The translations under genes and the position numbers were made by a program. A stretch of DNA of 64,000 nt from contig NZ_CP097160.1 of assembly GCF_023370115.1 (NCBI RefSeq), positions 1,364,001 through 1,428,000 of the forward strand. Reading direction: 5' to 3'. This document shows, in pieces, positions 5,127 to 41,070 of this stretch. The notes below the pieces were generated by a model. It saw only the letters and a program-made list of their open reading frames with translations, was not told where the DNA came from and did no database searches. This DNA is from Gulosibacter sediminis (GTDB lineage Bacteria > Actinomycetota > Actinomycetes > Actinomycetales > Microbacteriaceae). Position 1 is the stretch's first letter. Each line of letters starts with the position of its first letter.

Positions 5127-6101
5127 CTAGCTTACGTTGTCAGCCTGATCACCCGCGGCGATCAGGGCGCCGCGAAGCCACTCGGCGACGAGTTCGCGAA
5201 CCTCGGGCGGCCCCGTGACGACAAATCCGCCGGCGTGCTCGGCCGCGAGTCGCGCGGCGACTTCGGGGCTGCGTAGCCGAAGATCCGCGCGAATCCAACC
5301 ATCGGGGCCGATCTTGGGCACCTTGGCGGTGCCGAAATAGGGCCTGATCGCCGCGACCGCGCCGGCGCGAATCGCGACGCTGACAGTCAGCAGCGATTTG
5401 CCCGTGACCTGTAACGCGCGGTTACGTTGCGCCGGAGTGTGCGGCTCGGCCGCGGTGTCGAGCACCTCGAGGTCGAAGATGCGGTCGCTGCGGAACCAAC
5501 GCAGCGCCTGCCGAAGGTGGCAATACGCGTTGAGGTAGATGAGACCGCTGCGCGACTCAAGCCGGAGCGGGTCCACTGTGCGTTCCTCGGGTGCCGACGA
5601 GGCCTCCCCGCTGTAGCGCAAGCGCAGCTGCCGGCCCGAATCGATGGCCTGGCGGATGAGCGCAAGCCGCGGGTCCTTGTTGGCCGGGGCCTCGGTTGTC
5701 GTGGCGCCGCGGAGCTTCACCTGAAGTTCGTCGATGCGGTTTGCTTCGCTGCTCGTCGCGGACTCGCGCAGCACGTCGAGTCCGGTGAGCACGAGGGCGA
5801 GTTCGTCGGCATCGAAGCTCTTCGGGGCACCCTCGACGGGCACATTCGTGAGCTTGACCCACGGTTCATCGGCCTCGAGCCCGTCCGCGTCGAAGTCAAA
5901 CATGCGGGACGGATCGACCTGACCGTCGCTGTCATACAGTTCGAGCGACCAGACGTAGTCGATCACGGCACGCATGTTGGCCGGCGTCTGCGAAAACGTC
6001 GCGGCGAGCTCGCCGAGGTCGACGCCGTAGGGATGCTTGCGGAGCCAGTCGACGAGCGACGAGATCAGGAGCACATCGGTGGCTTTCGCGGCCGCGGTCA
6101 T
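5127..6101 (-). CDS. pafC: WYL-domain transcriptional regulator PafC
   Basis: A 324-residue protein with an N-terminal winged-helix region and a WYL domain in the second half (residues ~150-230, including GLIYLNAYCHLRQALRWFR). In mycobacteria PafB and PafC form a heterodimeric activator of the LexA-independent DNA damage response. The ATG overlaps the stop of pafB by four bases (ATGA at 6098-6101), which fits equimolar synthesis of the two subunits. Assignment as C rather than B rests on gene order. Confidence 0.85.
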   Translation of the reverse strand: MTAAAKATDVLLISSLVDWLRKHPYGVDLGELAATFSQTPANMRAVIDYVWSLELYDSDGQVDPSRMFDFDADGLEADEPWVKLTNVPVEGAPKSFDADELALVLTGLDVLRESATSSEANRIDELQVKLRGATTTEAPANKDPRLALIRQAIDSGRQLRLRYSGEASSAPEERTVDPLRLESRSGLIYLNAYCHLRQALRWFRSDRIFDLEVLDTAAEPHTPAQRNRALQVTGKSLLTVSVAIRAGAVAAIRPYFGTAKVPKIGPDGWIRADLRLRSPEVAARLAAEHAGGFVVTGPPEVRELVAEWLRGALIAAGDQADNVS

Positions 6102-7102
6102 ACTGCTGCCCCCTCATGCAGCTCAAGGGCGCGCTGGAGGCGATCCTCCACGCCCTCTCGGGTCGACTCTGGCGACTCGACGACGAGCAAGTGGGCAAGC
6201 CCCGCGAATTCATCGGTCAACACCCCGTGGTCCCAGTCGAAGACCTCGAACGACACCCATTCGTCGGTGCGGCCGAGCTCGGTGCCGCGGCCGCGCATCC
6301 GCGCTTCGGCCTCAGTGCCAGCTCGCGCGCGGACGCGCACGGGGTGTGCGGCGGCGAGCGCGTCGAGCTTCGCCTCGAGCCCGGGTTCGGCGGTGTGGGC
6401 GGGGTCGGCCACACCCTCGATGCGAATCTCCGAGACGATGCGGTTGACGAGATAGGTGCGGTGGGCGTCGCGCTCGACGTCCCAAGCGTGCAGCAGCCAT
6501 CGACCCGACTTCACGATGAGCCGCAGCGGATCCACGGTGCGCGGCCAGGGGTCACGGCTGTCCTGGTTGACGTAGTCGAAACCGATGCGCTTGCGGCCAG
6601 CGATCGCCGAACGCAGCTGGGCGAACACGGGGTGCGTCGAGACCTTCGCCGTGGGTTGTGAGGCGGTCGACTCGGCGCCGCTCTCGCCGCTCGGCAGGAG
6701 CTTGAGGTAGCTGCGCCGGGCATCCTCGTCGAGGCTGCGGTCGAGCCAGACTTTCGTCGCCGAGTCGATGAGCAGGGTCTCCTGGGCATCGAGCCCCACG
6801 ACGCCGACCGACTCGGTGCTGCTCTCAAGCTGGTAGCGCCACTGAGCACGGTCGCCGGGTGCCTCCGGGTCGGGGACGGTGACGATGTGGAAGCCACTCT
6901 CGTGGAGGTCAGCACGATCTCGCTCGAGCTTCTTCTCGAGCGCGTCGCTGCGCTCACCGCCGTTGCGCTCGAGCTGCGCTCGATAATCGGGCACAAGCCC
7001 GAACAACTCGTCGCTCGTCAGCGGCCGCGTGCTGCTCATCAGCGCGAGCAGCAGGTGGATCTGTCGAGCGTGGTGGGGTTTCAGCGGAGCTGCCATTTTC
7101 AC
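6098..7102 (-). CDS. pafB: WYL-domain transcriptional regulator PafB
   Basis: A 334-residue paralogue and partner of PafC, with an N-terminal helix-turn-helix (HARQIHLLLALMSSTRPLTSD) and a WYL domain around residues 175-245 (GRKRIGFDYVNQD, then KSGRWLLHAWDVERDAHRTY). I place the start at GTG 7102, which shares GTGA with the stop of the preceding FKBP gene; an ATG two codons later (7096) is equally possible. The pair would control DNA repair genes, judging from the mycobacterial system. The pupylation genes that usually neighbour pafBC are absent. Confidence 0.85.
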   Translation of the reverse strand: MKMAAPLKPHHARQIHLLLALMSSTRPLTSDELFGLVPDYRAQLERNGGERSDALEKKLERDRADLHESGFHIVTVPDPEAPGDRAQWRYQLESSTESVGVVGLDAQETLLIDSATKVWLDRSLDEDARRSYLKLLPSGESGAESTASQPTAKVSTHPVFAQLRSAIAGRKRIGFDYVNQDSRDPWPRTVDPLRLIVKSGRWLLHAWDVERDAHRTYLVNRIVSEIRIEGVADPAHTAEPGLEAKLDALAAAHPVRVRARAGTEAEARMRGRGTELGRTDEWVSFEVFDWDHGVLTDEFAGLAHLLVVESPESTREGVEDRLQRALELHEGAAV

Positions 7103-15526: not shown

Positions 15527-16013
15527 ATGGGTTCTGCGCTAGTTCTGGATCAGTTCGGTGACACCAATCACCTGAGACTCGCGCGCATCGAGACGCGACC
15601 ATTACTGGCAACGGAGGTCCGCATCAGCATCGCCGTTGCGACCTCGATCGTCCTCGATGAAAACCACCCGAGCCTGCACCGCCAACCGCCGACAGTTTCC
15701 AAACTCAAGGCTGGGGTGCTGGGCATCGCGGGGACGGACGGCTCAGATTGCGATCCGTTCGGGCGTCCCGCCACACCGCGTGGTCACCATCGAGGTGCAA
15801 GATGCGCCCGTCGGCGTCGTTCAGGTCAATGGTGTCAACGCAGCTCCCGATGCGCTCGACCGAGTCCTGGAATTGATCTCTGCCAAGCCCTTGCGCAGCC
15901 CCGTCGCCGCAACGTACACCCTCGACCAGTTCCATCACGCGATCTCACACCAGCGCAGCCGCCACGTCCACGGCAAGATCGCGATCAGTACTCCATTGAG
16001 CAACGCGACCTAG
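15527..16013 (+). pseudogene. gutted NADP-dependent quinone oxidoreductase (zinc-type alcohol dehydrogenase family)
   Basis: Two pieces of one enzyme lie in different frames. The first, from ATG 15527, reads SALVLDQFGDTNHLRLARIE and then EVRISIAVA, the N-terminus of MDR-type quinone oxidoreductases. The second, from about 15745 to 16013, reads GVPPHRVVTI and then SPVAATYTLDQFHHAI and HVHGKIAI, the usual C-terminus. About half of a normal ~310-residue protein, including the Rossmann NADP-binding core, is missing, and the frame changes. Together with spacer this fills most of the 856-base gap 15401-16256; I see no intact gene in the rest of it. Confidence 0.7.
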
Positions 16014-16163
16014 GTCGAGGCCGACGAAGTAGCCCGAGCACCAATCGTCACCACGCGAGTCACTCAAACGGCCCGTTGATGTCGGGGGCTCGTGCGAGAG
16101 TGAACCTAGGTCGAAAACCGGCCCGTGGATGCTCGAAACCTCGAACATCGACGCCGGCAACAT

Positions 16164-16179
16164 TAGAACGTATGTTCGC
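16164..16179. promoter_or_regulatory. putative LexA (SOS) box
   Basis: AGAACGTATGTTCGC carries the palindromic core GAAC-N4-GTTC of the actinobacterial SOS box (consensus TCGAAC-N4-GTTCGA). It lies directly upstream of a -35/-10 pair and 78 bp before the DUF222/HNH start. Mycobacterial 13E12-family genes also carry LexA boxes. The left half-site is imperfect. Confidence 0.6.
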
Positions 16180-16208
16180 TTTCAATTTTGCCTACATGCG
16201 TATATATT
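16180..16208 (+). promoter_or_regulatory. promoter of the DUF222/HNH gene
   Basis: TTTCAA (16180-16185) and TATATT (16203-16208) are separated by 17 bp in an AT-rich patch unusual for this genome. The LexA box abuts the -35, so bound LexA should block RNA polymerase. Confidence 0.5.
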
Positions 16209-16256
16209 TGCTACGACGGTTCCCCCATTGACGCACCTTCGAGGAGGTGACGCCCG

Positions 16257-17810
16257 ATGACCGCAACGACTCCCCCACCGAACTCCAACCCTGATGCTGA
16301 TGAGCCGATTCGTCGCGCACCGAAGCACCGGCCAGACGGCACCAGCCCTCCACCCAGCCCAAACGCAGCGCCCGACAAGCCGAGCCGTCGCGCACCGAAG
16401 CACCGGCCAGACGGCACCACCCCGCCACCCGAAACCGACGGACTCAACGACGCGCTCGCCGCGATCGAAGGCATGGTGCTCAACGGGGCGAAACTCGAAC
16501 AAGTCGGCGCGTTCATGAAGATGATGGGCCTCGCGCAGGCCTACACCGTCACCGAGCACCGCACCTACACGCAACTTCAGGAACGTTCTTCGGTCGCGAG
16601 CCCCGACGATCTGCTGCGGTTGAACCTGCGGTCGATCGTGGCCGAGTTCGGGATCCACACGAACGAATCCGACACCGCACTCCTCAACCGCGCATATGAC
16701 GCGCACCGCCTCGGCACCGACTTCGTCGGGTGGCTCGACCCGCTCCGCGAGGCCGAAGTCACCATGCGGCATGCCCGCGCGCTCCTCCGCCACGCGGGGA
16801 TCGTGCCCGACGGGCGCCGCGATGAGTACGCGACCAAGGTGCTCGAATTTGCGAAGGGCGAGACCGTCGCCGCGACCGACGCCTTCGCGCGCAAGCTCGC
16901 CGCCGAACTCGGGGCCGAGGAGTTTGAGGCCGCGTTCGAGCACGAATACCAAGCACGCCACGTCACGATCGAAGACCGCGACTTCGGCATGTCGCGCATC
17001 ACCGCCGACATCCCAACGCTGCAGGCCCACGCGATGTACGACCTCATGCAGCAGCAAGCCAAAGCGCTCCGTGAGGAGCACGTGAACGAGGCCGACGAAC
17101 ACCGGTGCCGCGTCCGCGACGCACAAGCACGCGGGGAAGCGCTCTCCCCTGCAGATGCCGAGTTCATCGAAGACCCACGCACGGTGCGCCAGTTGATGGC
17201 CGACCTGTTCGTCGAGACCTTCCTCACCACGACGCCGCAGAGCATGCGCGAGTACGACGCCAAGGGCCACTCGCGCGTGACCGCGACGGTGAGCATCGTG
17301 ATCCCGGTCCTGAACTTGCTCAACCCGGACGCACCGCGTGATGTCGCGACACTGAACGGGATGATGCCGGTCAGCATGACCGAGGCCCGCGACATGGCCT
17401 CAAAGGCGAAATGCTTCCAACGAATCCTCACCGACCCCATCACCGGGCACGTCGTAACGGTTGATTCCCGCACCCCGACCCCATCGATGCGCAGATTCCT
17501 GCAAGCCAGGGACCAAGTGTGTTTATTCCCGAGCTGCCGCAGACCCGCCCATCAAAGCGAGTTAGATCACACGAAACCCTGGGCCGCGGGCGGCAACACC
17601 GACGTCGAAAACCTGGGACACCTCTGCCCAAAACACCACACCCTCAAACATCAGCGTCCGTGGGAATGCGAACAACTCGGCAATGGCAAAGTCAGGTGGC
17701 GAACCCCACGCGGCGAATGGGTCACCGTCGAACCAAGACCAGTCGGACCGATCTTCAAACCCGTCGACGACCAGAGCTATGACGCGATCAACGACCCCGC
17801 GCCCTTCTAG
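16257..17810 (+). CDS. DUF222 / HNH endonuclease domain protein (13E12-repeat type)
   Basis: A 517-residue protein. Residues ~1-60 are Pro-rich and contain a duplicated RRAPKHRPDGT segment; the centre is the DUF222 domain. The C-terminus is an HNH nuclease domain: CLFPSCRRPAHQSELDHTKP, then NTDVENLGHLCPKHHTLKH, with paired Cys/His zinc ligands and the catalytic His in LDHTKP. The family is found in many copies in actinobacteria, often within or beside mobile elements; its biological role is unknown. A strong GAGGAGG ribosome binding site precedes the ATG. The likely LexA box and promoter suggest induction by DNA damage. Decayed genes on both sides and the nearby tRNA mark this as an accessory locus. 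Confidence 0.9.
   Translation: MTATTPPPNSNPDADEPIRRAPKHRPDGTSPPPSPNAAPDKPSRRAPKHRPDGTTPPPETDGLNDALAAIEGMVLNGAKLEQVGAFMKMMGLAQAYTVTEHRTYTQLQERSSVASPDDLLRLNLRSIVAEFGIHTNESDTALLNRAYDAHRLGTDFVGWLDPLREAEVTMRHARALLRHAGIVPDGRRDEYATKVLEFAKGETVAATDAFARKLAAELGAEEFEAAFEHEYQARHVTIEDRDFGMSRITADIPTLQAHAMYDLMQQQAKALREEHVNEADEHRCRVRDAQARGEALSPADAEFIEDPRTVRQLMADLFVETFLTTTPQSMREYDAKGHSRVTATVSIVIPVLNLLNPDAPRDVATLNGMMPVSMTEARDMASKAKCFQRILTDPITGHVVTVDSRTPTPSMRRFLQARDQVCLFPSCRRPAHQSELDHTKPWAAGGNTDVENLGHLCPKHHTLKHQRPWECEQLGNGKVRWRTPRGEWVTVEPRPVGPIFKPVDDQSYDAINDPAPF
16311..16419 (+). repeat. 34-bp perfect direct repeat, period 75 bp, inside the DUF222/HNH gene
   Basis: The same 34 bases occur at 16311-16344 and 16386-16419, beginning CGTCGCGCACCGAAG. 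The period is 25 codons, so copy number change would keep the frame. It encodes RRAPKHRPDGT twice. Confidence 0.9.
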
Positions 17811-17871
17811 CGCGGCGGGACTCCGTCTGCACGCGACAAAGTGAGCAGATCGGTTGCTCAACTGGGCCGAT

Positions 17872-17900
17872 TTGCGCTGCACCGAATGAAGCAGTAAAGT
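17872..17900 (+). promoter_or_regulatory. promoter of tRNA-Leu
   Basis: TTGCGC (17872-17877) and TAAAGT (17895-17900) are 17 bp apart, 31 bp before the mature tRNA. Confidence 0.55.
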
Positions 17901-17931
17901 AGTCATTCGTGCCCACGAGCACAAAACACCC

Positions 17932-18017
17932 GCGCGGGTGGCGGAATTGGTAGACGCGCTAGCTTGAGGTGCTAGTGACCGTATTAGGTCGTGGGGGTTC
18001 AAGTCCCCCCTCGCGCA
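17932..18017 (+). tRNA. tRNA-Leu(GAG)
   Basis: A class II tRNA with a long variable arm. The acceptor stem pairs GCGCGGG (17932-17938) with CTCGCGC (18010-18016), including one G-U. The anticodon stem CTAGC/GCTAG encloses loop TTGAGGT, giving anticodon GAG at 17966-17968. The T arm reads GGGGGTTCAAGTCCCCC. The discriminator is A and CCA is not encoded. Confidence 0.95.
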
Positions 18018-18027
18018 CAGTAACGAT

Positions 18028-18066
18028 AAGGCCCCTGACCTGGAATTCAATCCGGTCAGGGGCCTT
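18028..18066 (+). terminator. intrinsic terminator after tRNA-Leu
   Basis: A perfect 13-bp stem, AAGGCCCCTGACC with GGTCAGGGGCCTT, surrounds a 13-base loop just 10 bases past the tRNA. Confidence 0.8.
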
Positions 18067-18134
18067 TCGCGTTGGTGCTCAGCCTAGAATTGAACGTCAA
18101 TCAATTCTTCCAATTCCGGCGAGGAGGCTGCCGC

Positions 18135-18545
18135 ATGCACGATCTCTCAGACCGCGCTGACGTTGAGCAGTTGGTATCTACCTTCTACTTGTCGGCGTTC
18201 GAGGATCCTTTGATCGGCCCGATCTTCACTGACGTGGCCAAGCTCGACCTCGGCCACCACTTGCCGATCATGTCCGACTTCTGGGAGACGGTGCTGTGGA
18301 ATGCCGGCAAGTATCGTCGCAACGCGCTCCAACTCCACTTTGCGCTGCACACCAAGCATCCGCTCGGCTCGGAACACTTCGAACGCTGGCTCGACATCTG
18401 GACTAGTAACCTCGACGCCCAGTTCAGCGGGCCGATCGCCGACCGCGCAAAGCTCCAGGCCACCCGGATCGCAGGCTCTCTGCAGCGACGACTCGCCGGC
18501 CGCTCCGGCAGCGGCTTCGAAACGATCCGCCGCAGAGAGCTCTAG
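18135..18545 (+). CDS. group III truncated haemoglobin-like protein
   Basis: A 136-residue globin of the truncated group III type: DVEQLVSTFYLSAFEDPLIG at the start, the FWETVLWNAGKYRRN helix, and LQLHFALHTKHPLGSEHFERW holding the likely haem-binding histidine. These proteins bind O2 or NO; the exact role is unknown. I start at ATG 18135, which has GAGGAGG seven bases upstream, rather than at earlier in-frame codons. The last residues (FETIRRREL) run into decayed sequence. Confidence 0.85.
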   Translation: MHDLSDRADVEQLVSTFYLSAFEDPLIGPIFTDVAKLDLGHHLPIMSDFWETVLWNAGKYRRNALQLHFALHTKHPLGSEHFERWLDIWTSNLDAQFSGPIADRAKLQATRIAGSLQRRLAGRSGSGFETIRRREL

Positions 18546-39886: not shown

Positions 39887-41070
39887 ACGGCGCTCGCCGC
39901 CATCATCGCTTCGGTGCTCGCCTCCAGTTCACGCTCGAGGGTTTCGCGCATGCGCTCCTGCACCTCGGGCACGCTGATCGACTGCACGATCTCGTTCAGG
40001 AAGCCGTGCACGACGAGACGACGGGCGGTGAGCTCGTCGATGCCGCGGGCCATGAGGTAGAACAGCTGTTCCTGCTCGAAGCGGCCGGTCGCCGACGCGT
40101 GGCCTGCACCCTCGATGTCGCCCGTCTCGATCTCAAGGTTCGGGATCGAGTCGGCGCGCGCGCCGTTCGAAAGCACGAGGTTGCGGTTCTGCTCGTAGCT
40201 CTGGGTGCCGACCGCGGTCGGGCGGATCAGCACGTCGCCGATCCAGACGGCGCGAGCACCGTCGCCCTGCAGGGCGCCCTTGTAGTTCACGTCGCTCGTG
40301 GTGCGCTCGCCGGCGTGGTCGATGTAGACCTGGTGCTCGAAGTGCTGTCCCGCATCCGAGAAGTAGAGGCCCTTCGCGATGCCCTCGGCGCCGGTTCCGT
40401 TGAGGTGCAGCGACGGGTTCACGCGCACGACGTCGCCACCGAAGGTGACGAGCGTGTGCTTGAGCGACGCATCCTTGCCGATGGCGGCCTGGTGGGCGCC
40501 GGTGTGCACGGCGTCGTCGTCCCATTCGTGGATGGCGATGACGTCGAGGTTCGCGCCGTCTTCGACGAGGATCTCGACGTTCTCACTCACGAGCGCCGAA
40601 CCGGTGTGCTCGACCACGATCGTGGCAGTCGAGTTCGGCTCGGCCTGGAGCACGAGGTGCACGAGGTCGCGGGTCTGCGCGCCAGCGCCGGTCACGCGCA
40701 CGTAGACGGGCGCATCGAGGGAAGCGTCGGCGGGGATCACGACGTGCGTCGCGGTCGCATACTTCGACGCAATGGCCTCGGCGCGGCCCTCGGGCGTGAA
40801 CCCGGTGCCACGGGGCGCCTCGCCGGGGGCGAGAGTGCCGGTGCGCACCTCGCTCGGGCCGGAAACTTCGACCGTGACGCTGCGGTCGCCAGCAGCATCC
40901 TCGAACAGCGGCGCGAGCTTCTTGATCGGCGCGTACTTCCAGTCAACTTCGCGACCGTTCGGCTGGGGGAAGTCCTCGGGCGCGAACGAAGCGGGTCGCT
41001 CCGAACGCGTCTGGACAGGGACGAACTTTCCGGCGCTCTCGGGCAGGCGCGGAGTCTCAGTGATCGTCAT
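39883..41070 (-). CDS. sufD: Fe-S cluster assembly protein SufD
   Basis: A 395-residue beta-helix protein, partner of SufB. The C-terminal core has DIEGAGHASATGRFEQEQLF and YLMARGIDELTARRLVVHGF. The N-terminus is variable as usual. It follows sufB by five bases. Confidence 0.93.
   Translation of the reverse strand: MTITETPRLPESAGKFVPVQTRSERPASFAPEDFPQPNGREVDWKYAPIKKLAPLFEDAAGDRSVTVEVSGPSEVRTGTLAPGEAPRGTGFTPEGRAEAIASKYATATHVVIPADASLDAPVYVRVTGAGAQTRDLVHLVLQAEPNSTATIVVEHTGSALVSENVEILVEDGANLDVIAIHEWDDDAVHTGAHQAAIGKDASLKHTLVTFGGDVVRVNPSLHLNGTGAEGIAKGLYFSDAGQHFEHQVYIDHAGERTTSDVNYKGALQGDGARAVWIGDVLIRPTAVGTQSYEQNRNLVLSNGARADSIPNLEIETGDIEGAGHASATGRFEQEQLFYLMARGIDELTARRLVVHGFLNEIVQSISVPEVQERMRETLERELEASTEAMMAASAV

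Follow-up and report, generated by a model that had tools for sequence, protein, structure and literature searches.

A putative damage-induced DUF222/HNH nuclease gene of Gulosibacter sediminis with LexA- and PafBC-type upstream signals

The original SOS-box paper is reportedly that of Davis (2002), and the original paper on the RecA-independent promoter is said to be that of Gamulin (2004). For Mycobacterium tuberculosis, a passage of PMC5005354 states, with reference to earlier work, that LexA controls the 13E12 genes Rv0515, Rv1702c, Rv3074 and Rv3776, and five putative HNH endonucleases are listed in the RecA-dependent mitomycin response (PMC8151990, text); damage control of the 13E12/DUF222 family is therefore already known. 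The related REP13E12 loci are said in the text of a recent preprint to lack a defined biological function (PMC13061034).

Here we analysed a stretch of 64,000 nucleotides of the Gulosibacter sediminis genome (the window), which contains a gene of this family (Table 1). The locus resembles mycobacterial REP13E12 under LexA in its DUF222-HNH architecture (by homology), its SOS-type box upstream, its multicopy state and the occurrence of gene conversion (passages of PMC5005354, PMC4181829 and PMC13061034, from which alone the mycobacterial side of the comparison is drawn), but it belongs to the Microbacteriaceae, and among the loci sampled from that family a PafBC-type motif is the commoner upstream signal. 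It also resembles the recA promoter region with its LexA box and PafBC (RecA-independent) promoter, both of which precede recA in this genome too; here, in contrast, the two elements would drive a candidate nuclease, and the PafBC-type -10 of the window copy is off consensus. New here are the commoner PafBC-type motif, the nearby PafBC pair and the plausible assignment of a DNA-binding fold to the DUF222 region. A link between PafBC and 13E12 genes was not found in the open-licence literature searched; the supplementary regulon tables of PMC8151990 may hold one. On balance, we favour the reading that the gene would encode an HNH endonuclease of the 13E12/DUF222 family that is induced by damage under dual LexA/PafBC control and is probably site-specific.

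Table 1. Features of the nuclease locus and the candidate regulator genes (window positions)
Feature	Position	Strand	Remarks
pafC homologue (WYL, WCX), candidate regulator	5127-6101	-	PDB PafBC match E 6.5e-23; PafC HTH 31.9 bits against a cut-off of 32
pafB homologue (WYL), candidate regulator	6098-7102	-	PDB PafBC match E 1.6e-13
Zinc-binding dehydrogenase remnant (PF13602)	15639-16010		Upstream of the nuclease gene
PafBC-type promoter-like motif TGTCGG-N10-GAGAGT	16080-16101	+	9-mer one mismatch from TGTCGGWGG; -10 departs from TANNNT
LexA (SOS) box TAGAACGTATGTTCGC (16-mer)	16164-16179	+	Core GAACGTATGTTC at 16166-16177; 78-93 bp before the ATG
Probable -10 (TATATT), box-proximal promoter	16203-16208	+	Block CGTATATA[C/T]TT kept in five paralogs
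Shine-Dalgarno region GAGGAGGTGACG	16241-16252	+	SD GAGGAGGTG; good ribosome site
DUF222/HNH (13E12-type) nuclease gene	16257-17810	+	Intact ORF, 517 codons / 517 aa
Predicted ParB/Noc-type helix-turn-helix DNA-binding domain	16530-16907	+	Codons ~92-217, inside the DUF222 region
HNH nuclease domain match	17532-17657	+	Codons 426-467; PF01844
tRNA-Leu(gag)	17932-18018	+	121 bp after the stop codon

Upstream signals of the window copy

The GAAC-N4-GTTC palindrome that a sequence-only reading of this DNA had reported is present about 80 bp before the start codon. Over 16 positions the site differs at two from TCGAAMRYWTGTTCGA, the core of the M. tuberculosis SOS motif as printed in PMC4181829, which qualifies it as an SOS box, and its centre GTAT fits RYWT. 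It agrees with published mycobacterial SOS boxes. In this genome recA is preceded by TCGAAACATTGTTCGA and lexA by TCGAAAAGATGTTTGA and related sites; these boxes resemble the window site, which is therefore of the right type.

A single core nevertheless proves little, because GAACN4GTTC occurs 39 times genome-wide against 35 times for the reversed control. The window holds two such cores, a number reached by 26 of 100 shuffles, and one other site as good as the SOS box (18379, inside a globin reading frame). The second exact core in the window, GAACAGCTGTTC, lies at 40060-40071. What lifts the box above chance is its placement and recurrence: an exact core stands within 350 bp upstream of two of the 14 copies of the gene in this genome, where 0.07 would be expected, and similar boxes are enriched before relatives (see below). 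The three closest copies carry the core with one mismatch only, and a degraded half-site is found in three of five close copies. The LexA control proposed in the sequence-only reading gains from the enrichment before relatives and from the likeness to the recA and lexA boxes, and is inferred. Judged from these comparisons, the LexA site is probably real and part of a known pattern.

Less of the proposed promoter stood up. The sequence-only reading had claimed two hexamers 17 bp apart; TATATT lies within a conserved block and is a probable -10, but a -35 near consensus was not found for it, and a promoter scan of 15950-18150 returned no sigma-70 -35/-10 pair.

Further upstream lies a second signal. 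Set against the PafBC motif consensus TGTCGG-10N-TA-3N-T (text of PMC8151990), TGTCGG is exact in the window copy, whereas the 9-mer TGTCGGGGG has a single mismatch, at its W position, and the -10 reads GAGAGT; both departures weaken the PafBC-type case for this copy. Its motif block aligns with those of the four closest copies, all of which carry the exact 9-mer. The recA gene of this genome carries the PafBC-type TGTCGGAGGCGCGACCTAGCCT, and PafBC itself is encoded in the genome, by a pafB-pafC pair in the same window, about 9 kb from the nuclease gene and near tatC. Control of the nuclease gene, as far as its upstream region tells, is thus probably dual, like that of recA. The earlier observation is in the main upheld and its reading as a damage-induced nuclease partly supported; it had missed the PafBC-type motif, which is the commoner second signal, and the PafBC genes.

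Upstream signals in the genome and among relatives

A 15-mer read off the copies has 25 sites in the genome at up to one mismatch, 17 of them, some in tandem 66-78 bp apart, before 12 of the 14 copies, a share that is circular because the 15-mer was derived from those very copies; at two mismatches the genome has 52 sites compared with 25 for the control. The sites free of this circularity include the motif or its one-mismatch form before uvrB, rmuC, nrdH-nrdI-nrdE and a SprT-like protease gene, the families of these genes being confirmed by search except for NrdH, which was named by eye. The ATG follows 28 bp on for rmuC and 29 bp on for uvrB. The remaining sites are located at 2319197, before an unnamed ORF, and at 1805020, 2049665 and 2388563. 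A PafBC-like site with two mismatches at 1785296 points away from lexA, an arrangement also reported for M. tuberculosis (text of PMC8151990).

The upstream regions of two sets of loci were compared. For the first, 109 loci were taken from further genomes of the family, 29 as returned by the search and 80 chosen from its best places; 105 of them have enough upstream sequence. The second, named set comprised 78 of 80 loci after two duplicates were dropped. These relatives are the best-scoring matches, not randomly drawn, and are not independent; TCGAACATGCATTCGA recurs among the Microbacterium rows. As a LexA-like box we counted any site with at most two of 12 specified positions off and at most one of these in the core. 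Such boxes were found within 350 bp upstream of 17/105 loci of the first set, compared with 2/108 downstream, 2/109 inside the gene and 4/103 further upstream, and upstream of 23/78 loci of the second, compared with 1/77, 1/78 and 0/78, respectively (upstream versus downstream, one-sided Fisher test: p 2e-4 and 3e-7). Exact cores are rarer, with 6/105 upstream against 1/108 downstream, 2/109 inside and 1/103 further upstream in the first set, and 5/78 against 0/77, 1/78 and 0/78 in the second. On a protein tree of 197 loci the 43 box carriers require at least 29 changes (a figure without a shuffled-label control), so the box appears scattered rather than acquired by one inheritance.

The PafBC-type motif is a commoner upstream signal than the LexA-like box in the family as sampled. 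Exact TGTCGGWGG precedes 49/105 loci of the first set, against 1/105 in antisense, 0/108 downstream, 1/109 inside and 6/103 at 450-800 bp upstream, and 36/78 loci of the second set, against 0/78 in antisense, 0/77 downstream, 1/78 inside and 2/78 further upstream. When the 9-mer is relaxed to up to one mismatch, as the window copy requires, it precedes 72/105 loci of the first set (antisense 6/105, downstream 13/108, inside 22/109, far upstream 23/103). Among the 60 exact 9-mer sites of that set the ATG follows exactly 28 bp on in 35 and 27-29 bp on in 45, and this spacing, read from sequence, is the layout of a leaderless promoter. At the -10 positions of the relatives T occupies the sixth position in 87% and the first in only 65%. 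Upstream of four loci (L058, L059, L057, L053) the TGTCGG motif stands in tandem, two or three times, 66-78 bp apart.

Domains of the encoded protein

The HNH motif described as intact in the sequence-only reading is so: PF01844 matches residues 426-467 of the window protein with 28.7 bits (cut-off 21.4), which places an HNH domain at the C-terminus, and the landmark residues invariant in two alignments of 30 and 40 proteins (C422, C427, D437, H438, N452, C457, H461) are all kept. A Pfam search of the window protein for DUF222 (PF02720) gave zero match. Of the 30 aligned proteins, 23 match the same model, and its cut-off is exceeded by four paralogs that share 42-53% identity with the window protein; it is these paralogs that tie the window protein to the DUF222 family. 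Two Gulosibacter loci, with 37 and 40% identity, are among its best named matches. A scan of a collection of genome contigs with the window protein as single query returned no relative.

Similarity to other nucleases is confined to the HNH end. Structure comparison gives this part weak alignments to modification-dependent restriction enzymes (6ghs, Z 5.3; 6ghc, Z 4.8). The sole PADLOC match, a weak one to a type II restriction enzyme (REase_II, E 0.0018), covers the HNH part, and like all PHROGs matches under E 0.1 it falls within residues 395-474. The HNH domains of IscB, Cas9 and McrA are likewise matched weakly and in the HNH part only; a relation to IscB was discarded for this reason. A viral fold search gave nothing at E 0.001, its best match (0.01) being to an unnamed protein.

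For the DUF222 region structure prediction points to a DNA-binding fold. An AlphaFold model built with 40 sequences has a mean pLDDT of 77 for the whole protein, and one of residues 56-345 alone reaches 86. When the latter was compared with known folds, the 11 best entries were without exception DNA-binding domains of ParB, Noc or Spo0J, which stand well above unrelated folds (Z 7.8-10.2 versus 5.8 for the next entry). For helical models, the tool cautions, a Z below about 13 may arise by chance. The alignments span 94-103 residues at 2.3-3.5 A, except for one entry at 5.2 A. A sequence profile of residues 78-235 has Spo0J of Thermus (1vz0) as its best PDB match at E 0.0063, and Pfam HTH_ParB matches five of 33 members (best E 0.0051), with competing matches to an AsnC-type HTH in two members (0.0041) and to DUF6471 in one (0.0025). 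Foldseek alone found ParB weakly (best E 0.42), HTH_ParB has no match in the window copy, and hhalign against two phage ParBs, P1 ParB and N15 SopB, gave nothing (Prob 0.2). The DUF222 region thus likely adopts, according to the predicted model, a ParB-type fold. The likeness to ParB/Noc/Spo0J consists of a predicted fold over about 100 residues and a weak but top-ranking profile match; it covers only the DNA-binding part of ParB, which here is joined to an HNH nuclease. No ParB-like domain in DUF222 is described in the open-licence literature passages checked.

A domain that may grip DNA together with an HNH domain suggests a site-specific DNA cutter. The ParB/Noc-type helix-turn-helix would hold on to a specific site or structure in the DNA, which the HNH domain at the C-terminus would cut. 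Expression would be low until DNA damage releases it along two paths like those of recA. In the first, RecA activated by single-stranded DNA would inactivate LexA and free the box-proximal promoter; in the second, PafBC would drive the upstream TGTCGG promoter. We infer binding, induction, cleavage and target alike.

Copies, locus history and possible roles

The genome (2.75 Mb, one contig) contains 14 full-size copies, 11 found with the window protein and three of another subgroup found via the Pfam family; the search with the window protein also lists one fragment and one match at E 0.04. The window copy is under purifying selection: dN/dS is 0.10-0.13 relative to its three closest paralogs and 0.36-0.50 relative to the four next ones (52-60% identical, dS 0.8-0.9). 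Together with the preserved HNH residues, the low ratios contradict the earlier suggestion of a decayed function for this copy. Two pairs of distant copies are identical over 1.1-1.5 kb. The copies at 427700-429244 and 709376-710881 agree at 100% in all eleven 100-bp steps between +369 and about +1468, with promoters that are about 75% similar and flanks that are unrelated, and those at 2329382-2330452 and 2413663-2414733 do so in fifteen steps (1.5 kb); such pairs result either from ectopic gene conversion or from recent copying. In the family as sampled, 188 of 299 genomes match the window protein and 111 lack a match at E 0.001, absences that are soft because at most five candidates per genome were scored; within the same genus four of seven genomes match, this one included.

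The gene had been placed between two pseudogenised stretches. This applies upstream, where the dehydrogenase remnant lies, and not downstream, where the tRNA gene is followed by an open globin-like frame (group III truncated haemoglobin, PDB sequence match E 7.6e-6; no match in a Pfam search). In eight of ten other genomes of the genus an M20-peptidase gene adjoins tRNA-Leu(gag) without a nuclease gene, whereas here about 2.5 kb separate the two; since these include the dehydrogenase remnant, the insert is not clean. In the nearest genome (G301; loci L113 and L133) the nuclease gene is in pieces, for which an assembly fault is possible, and ARAGORN found no tRNA-Leu(gag) on these two loci.

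Six of the 14 copies, including the window copy (17810-17932), have a tRNA gene no more than 313 bp from their end, and five of them face its 3' end; computed for 310 bp, this proximity has p 3e-9 under uniform placement and 0.0015 if a tenth of the genome is open. Among 187 loci elsewhere a tRNA lies within 350 bp downstream of three and upstream of two, which rules out tRNA targeting as a rule of the family. The motif GGGGAGAACTCTGCC has 10 genome sites at up to two mismatches against one in the control and occurs, at up to three mismatches, within 60 bp after the stop of five of the 14 copies (L057, L058, L059, L001, L003) and of 0/108 and 0/78 relatives. A mobile element with fixed ends was rejected, the left motif being the one shared with uvrB and others and the right motif (GGGGAGAACTCTGCC) being absent after the stops of relatives.

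Several other roles are conceivable. A repair nuclease proper, which would process damaged, mismatched or branched DNA within the damage regulon, is a serious candidate that we rate as somewhat improbable. It agrees with the promoter motif shared with recA, uvrB, rmuC, nrdHIE and the SprT-like gene, with the strong constraint relative to the three closest paralogs and with the mismatch-repair role proposed for 13E12 HNH proteins of M. tuberculosis in the text of PMC4181829, but a variable copy number and the many (softly) negative genomes would be odd for a core repair enzyme, and a ParB-type domain suggests recognition of a site over that of a lesion. We are more doubtful about a homing-like selfish gene whose nuclease cuts in or close to sibling or empty loci, into which RecA-dependent repair copies the gene, and as doubtful about the associated role of its control, by which damage induction would permit action when recombination proteins are abundant. 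The 14 full copies, the two pairs of other copies that look gene-converted, the patchy distribution in family and genus, the eight genomes with M20-peptidase gene and tRNA-Leu(gag) side by side, and the rank of REP13E12 among the most recombined loci of M. tuberculosis, with 87 conversion events (PMC13061034, preprint text), all speak for homing; however, passive conversion happens to any long repeat, the insert also holds the dehydrogenase remnant, the candidate element ends failed, and strong purifying selection is unexpected for a gene done homing. That DUF222/13E12 genes in general are widespread, damage-induced, free-standing homing-like genes whose ParB-type domain aims the HNH domain at chromosomal sites seems unlikely to us. 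If true, LexA and PafBC would limit the nuclease to just those times at which recombination is able to copy the gene, and homing would explain the REP13E12 loci as gene-conversion hotspots.

Least probable is a nuclease for defence or suicide that responds to DNA damage caused by phages or plasmids, to which the weak alignments with restriction enzymes and the REase_II match would fit, whereas the confinement of the PADLOC match and of the PHROGs matches under E 0.1 to the HNH end argues against it. A different kind of alternative concerns control: the LexA box might be a chance match and the PafBC-type promoter alone matter for the window copy. The near-equal core counts of genome and control, the degraded half-sites of close copies and the commoner PafBC-type motif in both sets of relatives are consistent with this; we consider it improbable given the enrichment of LexA-like boxes before relatives in two sets, the fit of the window site to the RYWT centre, and the imperfect PafBC-type motif of the window copy itself. 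For a damage-induced, probably site-specific nuclease under dual control, the reading we favour, the candidate DNA-binding domain and the layout of damage control make specific experiments possible where the label was 'function unknown', in a group of genes that is multicopy in many genomes of Microbacteriaceae.

Tandem repeats after the stop codon are not enriched at the preset threshold (23/122 versus 19/123, p 0.5). Strong short tandem-repeat arrays do follow the stop at loci L030, L031, L038, L047, L048, L198 and L216, an excess noted post hoc.
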